From contig JAFGRA010000186.1 of the NCBI GenBank assembly GCA_016935415.1, forward strand, positions 1 to 44,203: 44,203 nucleotides of DNA, read 5' to 3'. This document shows, piece after piece, positions 20,403 to 23,432 of the stretch; position 1 is the stretch's first letter, and each line of letters starts with the position of its first letter. Position numbers and translations under genes: made by a program. Source of the stretch: Anaerolineales bacterium (GTDB taxonomy: Bacteria > Chloroflexota > Anaerolineae > Anaerolineales > UBA11579). Under the pieces are notes generated by a model. The model was not told the DNA's origin and searched no databases. It was given only the letters and a program-made list of their open reading frames with translations.

Positions 20403-20430
20403 TTGACAGGTTCTCAATACTTGTGATAGA
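20403..20430 (+). promoter_or_regulatory. Putative promoter for the leader/rsgA operon
   Basis: TTGACA, 16 nt, GATAGA. Confidence 0.5.
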
Positions 20431-20481
20431 CTGGCGAACGTTGTAATCTATCGGAATTTTATGCCAAAGGAGGCGTGTTTT

Positions 20482-20544
20482 ATGCAAATGTCCGTTGAAT
20501 TTTCCGCAAATCTCGTTGAAGCGCGCCTCGTGATCGCCTGCTGA
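20482..20544 (+). CDS. Putative 20-aa leader peptide MQMSVEFSANLVEARLVIAC
   Basis: AAAGGAGG SD upstream of ATG; short ORF ends 25 nt before tandem terminator-like hairpins. Confidence 0.5.
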   Translation: MQMSVEFSANLVEARLVIAC

Positions 20545-20569
20545 TCGAAGGTACCCACCCTTTCCATTA

Positions 20570-20723
20570 GCGGCCACGGGAGCTTCCGTGGCTGTTTTGT
20601 TTTAACGGCCACGCCATGCGCTTCACTTCCGTGGCCGTTATGTGTTTAGGAACCCGCGCGTTCCTCTCAAGCGAACGGCAGCTTGCCCCGGCTACGGAAC
20701 CTTGTCCGCGGCCGTTTTCTTTT
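20570..20723 (+). promoter_or_regulatory. Tandem terminator/anti-terminator-like hairpins (candidate attenuator)
   Basis: Hairpin A GCCACGG/CCGTGGC + TGTTTTGTTTT (20573-20602); hairpin B AACGGCCACG/CGTGGCCGTT (20604-20639); hairpin C AACGGC...GCCGTT + TTTTCTTTT (20674-20723). Arms of A and B can also pair with each other. Confidence 0.6.
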
Positions 20724-20738
20724 AGAGAGGTGTAAGCG

Positions 20739-20945
20739 ATGCCTTCTATCAACATTTACAATCCAATCGTTGATCGAAACGTTGAGCGCGACGCGGTTGC
20801 CTCTTTGGAGAAACCGGAGCCAAACAAGGGTCACCGCAAGCCCATCAGCGTCCACTATCCCAATTGGGCCAGGTTGGACGGGCTGAATCTCAACTGGAAA
20901 ATACAAACCGACAGCCGAAACAAGGCGATTAGATTACAGGAATAA
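20739..20945 (+). CDS. Small protein of unknown function (68 aa)
   Basis: SD-like GAGAGGTG upstream of ATG; lies directly upstream of rsgA in a compact operon. Confidence 0.55.
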   Translation: MPSINIYNPIVDRNVERDAVASLEKPEPNKGHRKPISVHYPNWARLDGLNLNWKIQTDSRNKAIRLQE

Positions 20946-20951
20946 CTTACG

Positions 20952-22142
20952 ATGAGTAACGAGAATTACAATTACGAAAAACAAAGGCAGAAGCACCAGC
21001 ACAGCCAGGAATTGCGCAAAGCGCGCAAGAAATCCGGCCGCCGCAATACATCCAAGAAACCGCGCCGCAACGACTGGGCGCAGCTTTCGGATGAATACTG
21101 GGAAGACGCTGACCTTGAATCCTTCGAACGCGTCATGCCGCTGGACGAGAACGAACGCCGCCGCTCCGTAGAGAGCATGGCCTACAAAGCAGAGGCCAAA
21201 ACAAACGAAGCAGAAGCAGAAAACCTGGCACCCGCCGGACAGACCGGCGTAGTCAGCGAAGTCAGCAGCGGGTTGTGCCGCGTGCAGATAGACGGCCGTG
21301 AACTACTATGCAGCCTGCGTGGGGCGCTCAAGGCCGAAGAGACCGGCTTCACCAATGTGATAGCGGTTGGCGATCTAGTGATCGTCTCGCCGGATGGCGC
21401 CGAGCGCGGTGTGGTCGAAACTGTGCTGCCCCGCCGCAGCATGCTCGCCCGCCCGGACGTGTTCGCCAGCCACCTGCGGCAGGTCGTGGTCGCCAACGTC
21501 GACCAACTGCTGATCGTGGCAGCCTGGCGCGACCCGCACATCTGGCTGGAATTGATCGACCGTTATCTGGTGACCGCCGAACACAACGACCTGCAAGCCG
21601 TGATCTGCGTCAACAAGATCGACCTGGTCGCGGACCAGGCCGAGTTCGCGGCTGCCTTGCAGCCCTACCATAACCTGGGCTTCCACGTGCTGGCAACCAG
21701 CGCCCTCACCGGGGCGGGCATTGCCGAACTGCGCGAAGTGCTGCGCGGCAAAACCACCGTACTGGCCGGTATGTCCGGCGTAGGCAAGTCTTCACTGCTG
21801 TCCGCCGTCGATCCTGGCCTAGACCTGCACACCAAGACAGTTAGCGAACATTCCGGCGAAGGCCGCCATACCACCACGCAGGTCAACCGCTTCCCGTTGG
21901 CTATTGGCGGCATGGTAATGGACACGCCCGGTATGCGTGAGTTCGGCGTAGCCGGGATCACGCGTCCCGAACTGGATGACTACTTCCCAGAGATCGTGGC
22001 GGTAAGCTACAAATGCCAGTTCAACGACTGCACCCACCTCAACGAACCGGACTGCGCTGTGCAGGCTGCCGTTGAGGCCGGAGAAATCGCCCAGAGTCGC
22101 TACTATAGCTATACAAAAATCTATGCTGACCTGCCTGAATAA
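20952..22142 (+). CDS. rsgA: Ribosome small-subunit-dependent GTPase with basic N-terminal extension
   Basis: Permuted GTPase motifs NKIDLV (G4) before GMSGVGKSSLLSA (G1) and DTPGMREFG (G3); zinc knuckle CQFNDCTHLNEPDC. Confidence 0.95.
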   Translation: MSNENYNYEKQRQKHQHSQELRKARKKSGRRNTSKKPRRNDWAQLSDEYWEDADLESFERVMPLDENERRRSVESMAYKAEAKTNEAEAENLAPAGQTGVVSEVSSGLCRVQIDGRELLCSLRGALKAEETGFTNVIAVGDLVIVSPDGAERGVVETVLPRRSMLARPDVFASHLRQVVVANVDQLLIVAAWRDPHIWLELIDRYLVTAEHNDLQAVICVNKIDLVADQAEFAAALQPYHNLGFHVLATSALTGAGIAELREVLRGKTTVLAGMSGVGKSSLLSAVDPGLDLHTKTVSEHSGEGRHTTTQVNRFPLAIGGMVMDTPGMREFGVAGITRPELDDYFPEIVAVSYKCQFNDCTHLNEPDCAVQAAVEAGEIAQSRYYSYTKIYADLPE

Positions 22143-22153
22143 TTCAGGCAGGT
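22131..22153 (+). repeat. Hairpin spanning the rsgA stop codon
   Basis: CCTGCCTGAA-TAA-TTCAGGCAGG, 10-bp perfect stem; weak U tract TTGTGTTT follows. Confidence 0.6.
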
Positions 22154-22178
22154 TGTGTTTAATTTATGGAGGTTGCAC

Positions 22179-23432
22179 GTGTACAAGCTAAAAGCTGTAC
22201 CCGTTTATTTGATCTTTTCATTTTCATTTGGGCTAATCACCTCGCTGGCATTCCTGGTCAGCCAGATCTACCGCATCCAGATGGTTGGCCTAAACCCGCT
22301 GCAACTCGTGCTGGTCGGTACGGCCCTGGAAGCGGCCGCCTTCGCCTTTGAAATCCCCACCGGCGTGGTAGCCGACACCTACAGCCGCCGCCTCTCGGTG
22401 ATCATCGGCTGTGTCGTCTTTGGGCTAGGCTTGATCCTGGAAGGTGCCATCCAACTCTTCCTGACCGTGCTGCTGGCCCAGGTCGTGTGGGGATTGGGCT
22501 GGACTTTCATCAGCGGGGCGCTGGACGCCTGGATCGCTGATGAGGTTGGAGCGGATACGGTCGGCCCGGTCTACATCCGGGGTTCGCAGTTGGGCACGAT
22601 CGGCAGCCTGGTTGCCATCCCGATCAGCGTGGTGCTGGGCAACATCATCGTCAACCTGCCCTTCCTGGTGGGCGGCGGCCTGTTCATTGCCCTGGGACTC
22701 TTCCTAATCGTCTACATGCCCGAAGAAGGATTTACCCCCGCCCCACCCGAAGAGCGCGAGACTTTCCGCTCGATGACAACTACCTTCCGCGAAGGCGTAG
22801 GCATGATGCGGGCGCGCCCAATCTTGCTGATCTTCGTGGCCGTATCGCTTACCGTTGGCCTGGCCTCGGAAGGCTGGGATCGCCTCAGCGATGCCCACCT
22901 GCTGGCACACTTCACCTTCCCTACCTGGGGCGACATGACCGTGGTGACCTGGTTTGGCATCTTCGGAGCGATTTCCGGCATCCTCGGCCTGATCGTCAAG
23001 GAAATCATCAAACGCCGCCTGGACACCACCAACCAGGTCGCGCTGGCGCGTGCCTTGCAGATCATTCCCCTGTTGATTGCGATCAGCGTACTCACCTTTG
23101 CCTGGACGGATTCATTTGCCATTGCGGTGGTGATGACCTGGATCGTAGGTATCAGCCGCGGTGTTGCTTATCCGCTGGAAGCAGCCTGGATGAACAAGTA
23201 CATCGACTCCAAGGTGCGCGCCACCGTGCTCTCGATGACCAGCCAGGTCAATGCCCTGGGGCAGATCGTCGGTGGGCCGGGTGTGGGCTACGTCGGCAAC
23301 CGTTTCTCGCTGCCCAGCGCCCTCTCGATTTCGGGCACACTGTTCGCCATACCGTTCTGGTTGTATGGTTTGGCCTTGCGCCGTAGGTCAAGCATGTTGG
23401 ATCTGGGCGAGGAAGTGGTGGAAGCTTCGTAG
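22179..23432 (+). CDS. MFS transporter
   Basis: About 12 hydrophobic segments; EIPTGVVADTYSRRLSVIIG MFS motif-A-like loop. GTG start at 22179 with GGAGG SD preferred to 22155. Confidence 0.88.
   Translation: MYKLKAVPVYLIFSFSFGLITSLAFLVSQIYRIQMVGLNPLQLVLVGTALEAAAFAFEIPTGVVADTYSRRLSVIIGCVVFGLGLILEGAIQLFLTVLLAQVVWGLGWTFISGALDAWIADEVGADTVGPVYIRGSQLGTIGSLVAIPISVVLGNIIVNLPFLVGGGLFIALGLFLIVYMPEEGFTPAPPEERETFRSMTTTFREGVGMMRARPILLIFVAVSLTVGLASEGWDRLSDAHLLAHFTFPTWGDMTVVTWFGIFGAISGILGLIVKEIIKRRLDTTNQVALARALQIIPLLIAISVLTFAWTDSFAIAVVMTWIVGISRGVAYPLEAAWMNKYIDSKVRATVLSMTSQVNALGQIVGGPGVGYVGNRFSLPSALSISGTLFAIPFWLYGLALRRRSSMLDLGEEVVEAS

Follow-up and report, generated by a model that had tools for sequence, protein, structure and literature searches.

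A candidate ribosome-controlled transcription attenuator upstream of a second rsgA gene, and its relatives across the Anaerolineales

Described leaders and the layout of the locus

The control of genes that act on the ribosome by the ribosome itself has been described in a few bacterial leaders, and the one nearest to the element studied here is that of vmlR in Bacillus subtilis, where a ribosome-protection gene is governed by transcription attenuation through an anti-antiterminator, an antiterminator and a terminator (PMC9226507). A short uORF lies inside the anti-antiterminator region; initiation on this uORF is needed for the control, and other uORF sequences work as well (PMC9226507). In Listeria monocytogenes, the hflXr gene (rli80) is a second copy of a ribosome GTPase gene that is kept under uORF-dependent attenuation beside the housekeeping copy, and HflXr is the resistance copy of this GTPase (PMC6310831). 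The uORFC-6-1 motif found 5' of hflX in Bacillales is likewise a candidate ribosome-controlled leader of a ribosome-rescue gene; it serves mainly one gene in one lineage, and Chloroflexi are not mentioned in that report (PMC8632094). No description of such leaders in Chloroflexota was found in the literature we searched, where absence is no proof of absence, and the leader scored above the gathering threshold of no Rfam 15 family; the RNA switch presented below is apparently undescribed.

The stretch of DNA analysed, called the window in what follows, is an Anaerolineales contig of 44,203 nucleotides (JAFGRA010000186.1), and all features discussed here lie on its forward strand. An earlier note on this DNA had pointed out a promoter, a 20-codon ORF with a strong Shine-Dalgarno sequence (SD) and three GC-rich hairpins, two of them ending in U-tracts, followed by a small ORF, a ribosome GTPase gene and an MFS gene. 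Every one of these elements is where that note had placed it, the hairpins being tandem terminators; family matches bore out the GTPase and MFS genes, the former being a second rsgA paralogue. The putative promoter (20403-20432) consists of TTGACA at 20403-20408 and, after 18 nt, TAGACT at 20427-20432 with an extended -10 TG. In a simple scan the count of such one-site matches was no more than chance in shuffled sequence; judged by eye, TTGAC..TGnTAnaCT-like sequences precede most of the orthologous leaders. The leader ORF (20482-20544) has its SD, AAAGGAGG, at 20466-20473, starts with ATG at 20482, reads MQMSVEFSANLVEARLVIAC and stops with TGA at 20542-20544. Terminator hairpin A (20569-20603) comes next, with a stem-loop at 20569-20596 and a U-tract that extends to 20603, and is followed by hairpin B (20604-20647), a tandem back-up terminator made of a hairpin proper at 20604-20639 and a weak U-tract in the tail ATGTGTTT. 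The third terminator-like hairpin, C (20674-20723), is likewise a back-up; it ends at about 20719 with the U-tract TTTTCTTTT, and was missed by the consensus terminator scan of the window. As a whole, the 306-nt leader has a more stable fold than its dinucleotide shuffles (z = -2.66, 1/100).

This leader and its relatives in the order share with vmlR the predicted three-structure attenuation with a short uORF. In vmlR, the uORF is 3 codons long and carries a single-stranded SD, whereas the Anaerolineales leader ORFs have 12-35 codons and the SD is itself the first arm of the switch; and unlike vmlR, one architecture serves many unrelated gene families. The logic is that of vmlR and hflXr; set apart from both are an SD that doubles as an arm of the switch, a longer leader and the number of gene families that share a single architecture.

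Pairings conserved among the leaders

The earlier note had proposed mutually exclusive 1:2, 2:3 and 3:4 pairings among the two arms of hairpin A and the two arms of hairpin B. The attenuator logic of this proposal is well supported by covariation in more than 100 leaders, but the assignment of the arms is not: its regions 1-4 begin no less than 25 nt beyond the leader stop, out of reach for any choice made by a ribosome that translates the leader, and they were rejected as the main switch. The conservation of alternative pairings, which that note had set as a test, was found with other arms. In the assignment that is well supported by the comparison of leaders, region 1 is the leader SD (AAAGGAGGCGTGT, 20466-20478), an anti-antiterminator arm that pairs with region 2; region 2 is the end of the leader ORF (GCGCGCCTCGTGATCGCC, 20521-20538), which can take either region 1 or region 3 as its partner; region 3 is the 5' arm and loop of hairpin A (GCGGCCACGGGAGCTT, 20570-20585); and region 4 is the 3' arm of A, so that terminator A is the 3:4 pairing. 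The key pairing, 1:2, was absent from the earlier proposal. In the window it joins the leader SD at 20469-20478 to the ORF end at 20521-20529, with AGGAGGCGUG in the leader's own SD and GCGCGCCUCGUG a little 5' of the stop.

Two alignments bear on 1:2 and 3:4. In a hand-anchored set of 12 leaders, 92% of the cells pair and 8 pairs show double changes; the doubly changed cells number 16, where shuffles have 6 (0/500). In 99 leaders, double changes occur in 18 of the 19 pairs, and there are 162 compensated cells against 42 in shuffles (0/500), in an alignment that was fitted to the covariance model and so leans to it. A change in the SD flank is matched by one in its partner, as in the pairs GGCACAC/GUGUGCC of one leader (L032) and GGAGACGUG/CACGUCUC of another (L075).

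The other approach compares the pairing of a region with its own partner and with partners swapped in from other leaders. Among 94 independent leaders, own partners were better for both 1:2 (-17.8 vs -15.0 kcal/mol) and 2:3 (-18.0 vs -16.0 kcal/mol), each with p<=5e-5, and gave no advantage in the control pairing 1:3 (p=0.78); the outcome was unchanged when similar leaders were removed. This test is diluted by the automatic hairpin picking, which chose the second terminator in some leaders. In the 15 rsgA leaders the own 2:3 partner was again better (p=5e-5, or 1.5e-4 without near-copies). It is worth noting that 2:3 is part of no search model; the covariance-model hits, whose E-values are rough, were selected for 1:2 and 3:4. 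A column-based count of the 6-bp core of 2:3 was uninformative since this core hardly varies. Region 1 is more similar to the region 3 of its own leader than to that of other leaders (p=0.0045), as would be expected if both compete for region 2, and in a leader from another class (L235) the three regions have changed together, to GGGGUGU, ACACCCC and GGGGUGU.

All 111 leaders examined carry one to three terminators, in tandem pairs or triplets in 81 of them, and an intrinsic terminator with a U-tract stands 5' of the regulated gene in these as in the window. Anti-antiterminator, antiterminator and terminator are mutually exclusive, and each of them is conserved. The arms of hairpins A and B are complementary in the way the earlier note had stated, the 5' arm of A with the 3' arm of B and the 3' arm of A with the 5' arm of B. 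The latter pairing also covaries: the 3' arm of A fits its own B 5' arm better than those of others (p<=5e-5; 111 leaders), so release of A could disarm B too.

Genes under the leader

The RsgA protein of the window (20952-22142) falls within the RsgA GTPase superfamily, matching PF03193 with 191 bits and TIGR00157 with 232 bits against a cut-off of 100, and carries a basic N-terminal extension of about 95 residues. In the tree it groups with orthologues that share the extension, and their clade (SH-aLRT 98) stands outside that of the housekeeping proteins; the same genome has a housekeeping RsgA elsewhere (G000:C289:14357-15232); the reading of the window protein as the housekeeping RsgA was rejected on both counts. 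The other leader-controlled RsgA proteins form a further clade of their own (SH-aLRT 99). Four "housekeeping" rows of the tree (L007, L008, L012 and L023), which sit on a long branch, probably stem from wrongly chosen ORFs and leave the result unaffected. When scored with the covariance model, the leader was present at 14 of 14 long-RsgA loci and at 0 of 64 other RsgA loci. In the orthologue leaders a strong SD precedes an ORF of 19-24 codons, GYGCGCCU lies close to the end of this ORF, and the terminator has the form GGCCACGGG..CCGTGGCC; at one locus (L006, G004:C61) there is an in-frame TAG near the start of the long rsgA, with the leader intact.

Like hflXr, the long rsgA is a second ribosome-GTPase copy behind a uORF-bearing leader, here a candidate attenuator, beside a housekeeping copy; hflXr differs in that it encodes an HflX rather than an RsgA, has a 14-aa uORF with an RLR motif, and belongs to Firmicutes (PMC6310831). 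By analogy, the long RsgA would be the counterpart of HflXr. A role of RsgA as a resistance factor was not found in those parts of the literature that the search covered.

Behind rsgA lies the gene of a predicted MFS efflux-type protein (about 22179-23432; the ORF caller starts it at 22155). It resembles the TetA(P)/Tet(40) tetracycline efflux proteins, with 45.6% identity to TetA(P) of Paraclostridium plasmids, but scores 363 bits with the TetA(P) model, below the curated cut-off of 750, and is called TetA(P)-like here in that sense. The tetA(P) gene of Clostridium perfringens is itself under transcriptional attenuation. A TetA(P)-like pump gene also follows the long rsgA at two other loci (L003 and L033), and a RIO1 kinase gene takes this place at a third (L077).

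The leader is by no means confined to rsgA. The covariance model R1, built on the rsgA leaders only, matched in 208 of 400 Anaerolineales genomes, and R2 matches were found in 24 of 25 sampled genomes of the order, 4 of 14 from the rest of the class and 3 of 262 from the rest of the phylum. The 22 genomes reached through non-Chloroflexota loci gave no R2 match at E<=1e-3 and one at 0.003. Read by eye, matches outside the order also lie 5' of RIO-like, ABC or RsgA-like genes. A DNA search with the leader in 61 relatives recovered only the leader itself: its sequence has diverged too far, and a comparison works only when it takes structure into account.

For a census of downstream genes, 98 matches outside the rsgA set were fetched and 96 proteins scanned; they include 37 GNAT acetyltransferases, 18 RIO1 kinases, 14 RsgA proteins, 11 ABC ATPases or exporters and 4 MFS proteins. 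One downstream ABC-F protein is above the NCBI cut-off for ribosomal protection-like ABC-F (436.7 vs 380). Resistance-type similarity, by homology only, thus extends over TetA(P)-like MFS proteins, this ABC-F, GNATs and a drrA-like ABC protein. Of the 11 RIO1 genes in 61 genomes, 9 have the leader no more than 1.5 kb 5' of them; for a tenth it lies at a greater distance, with an rsgA in between. The window's genome has four leaders, that of the window and three more, which lie 5' of an ABC ATPase gene (L239, G000:C142), an ABC exporter gene (L246, G000:C296) and a RIO1 kinase gene (L256, G000:C255). In other genomes the leader often stands 5' of two or three tandem RimJ/RimL-like GNAT genes (L117, L124, L126 and others). 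At three loci (L077, G026:C71 and G073:C9) rsgA adjoins a RIO1 kinase gene, under the leader in L077 and G026, an adjacency that may point to a shared function at the small subunit.

Ribosome position, inducer and alternatives

Taken together, we read the window element as one member of a large Anaerolineales family of ribosome-controlled transcription attenuators, which would be switched on when ribosomes are held at the first leader codons; we put the probability of this reading at about 0.8. Comparative sequence analysis and folding show the leader ORF and its geometry, the alternative pairings and how they covary, the existence of the family and the genes that lie downstream; the direction of the switch, its inducer and the functions of the proteins we infer. 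With no ribosome on the leader, region 1 would pair with region 2 and leave region 3 free, so that terminator A forms and transcription stops. A ribosome in normal translation would advance to the leader stop, which lies about 8-12 nt beyond region 2, and would cover that region, so that 3:4 again forms. A ribosome held at the first leader codons would cover region 1 instead and leave region 2 free as it is made; region 2 could then pair with region 3 before region 4 is made, and terminator A would fail. The freed 3' arm of A could capture the 5' arm of B, possibly passing the antitermination on, and RNA polymerase would continue into the RsgA-MFS operon.

In transcripts folded up to the loop of A, the expected number of 2:3 pairs rises from 8.2 in free RNA to 11.8 when a ribosome sits at the start and falls to 1.1 when it sits at the stop, and shuffling region 3 lowers the value at the start to 5.6; the corresponding values for the window are 8.6, 12.9, 0.3 and 7.0. 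As long as no ribosome is present, 2:3 remains a competitor of 1:2. At equilibrium, terminator A is favoured even with the ribosome at the start (mean P 0.82 vs 0.99 in 111 leaders; 0.74 vs 0.98 in the window), and strong switching is seen in only 21 of the 111. Since in most leaders the finished terminator wins at equilibrium, wherever the ribosome is, the switch must be kinetic and set by the order of synthesis. Such dependence is usual for attenuators, and equilibrium folding of the complete leader is accordingly a poor test of switching, for which folding to the loop of A is more telling.

The signal would most likely be an inhibitor of initiation or early elongation. An antibiotic that inhibits translation is a plausible inducer in light of the TetA(P)-like pump, the ABC-F and the other resistance-type genes; in that case the RsgA paralogue would work on 30S subunits that are faulty or blocked by the drug, which the pump would carry out of the cell. 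The alternative to be taken most seriously, though we consider it unlikely, is that the leader senses the general state of translation, such as a slow-down of initiation, cold or an assembly defect, rather than antibiotics, with RsgA and RIO kinases as assembly factors induced when subunits are defective. The leader would indeed react to the position of the ribosome and not to a ligand, and RsgA and RIO1 are small-subunit maturation factors where they are known; yet many of the downstream genes code for efflux-type pumps, GNATs or an ABC-F, which fits drugs better than assembly defects.

The geometry of the leader ORF bears on whether the peptide matters. In all 111 leaders a short ORF of 12-35 codons lies just 3' of the SD and 5' of the terminator, starting with ATG in 110 and TTG in one. 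The anti-SD ends at a median of 8 nt 5' of the leader stop, mostly 5-14 nt in the 92 clear cases, so near that a ribosome at the stop must cover region 2. It is read in all three frames (63/19/10), which argues that selection acts on the RNA and not on the peptide. These observations make it improbable that the nascent peptide, for example RLV near the leader end, stalls the ribosome with a macrolide-type drug in the manner of ErmCL. The leader of hflXr does employ RLR (PMC6310831), and RLV occurs in several leaders (the window, L033, L077, L080 and L076); the RLV codons, however, are the anti-SD in one frame, other leaders give SAP, CLL or ASG, and a ribosome stalled at RLV would cover region 2 and so favour termination. 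Still less probable is an amino-acid or aminoacyl-tRNA attenuator of the trp/his type, which has the same 1:2/2:3/3:4 logic but for which the leaders contain neither regulatory codon runs nor common residues, and the downstream genes are not biosynthetic. Both were rejected on leader ORF geometry and frames, and the second also for its missing codon run. That the hairpins simply end transcription of the upstream protease gene as tandem terminators, or control read-through, next to a chance small ORF has almost no probability left, for although promoter and terminator counts are near chance in a simple scan, the leader is conserved and tied to its genes across the order, and its SD covaries with the leader end. 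Comparison with relatives places this layout far from chance.

Returning to the attenuator held open by stalled ribosomes, a wider proposal can be made, tentatively and at somewhat less than even odds: that the whole order runs a cis-acting translation-stress regulon with no shared transcription factor, in which one leader architecture, whose SD doubles as an arm of the switch and recurs in the loop of the terminator, has been copied or re-evolved 5' of many unrelated genes, and in which RsgA paralogues and bacterial RIO kinases make up a novel class of factors that are induced by drugs and protect or repair ribosomes. If our reading is right, a large bacterial group rich in uncultured members senses translation inhibitors via a common RNA device, and the device marks genes of unknown role that are likely to handle blocked ribosomes. 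Bacterial RIO kinases and the two RsgA clades would gain a testable role in ribosome protection or repair, parallel to that of HflXr, and there would be a handle for new resistance genes in environmental genomes.

Some smaller features of the operon deserve mention. The 68-aa ORF between the terminators and rsgA (20739-20945) had four weak matches (E 0.004-0.009), with no convincing relatives and no family in the scans. ORFs of 60-68 codons with a very strong SD occupy the same place at other loci (L033, at 2790-2984, L077, L080 and L081); their sequences are barely alike and match no family, and they could represent a further leader or a small protein under rapid evolution. In the window, CCTCTC at 20663-20668 and again at 20725-20730 can pair with the SD of this ORF (GAGAGG), which would make translational control as in vmlR possible. 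Further downstream, a terminator-like hairpin between rsgA and the MFS gene (22127-22155) could lower the expression of the pump.
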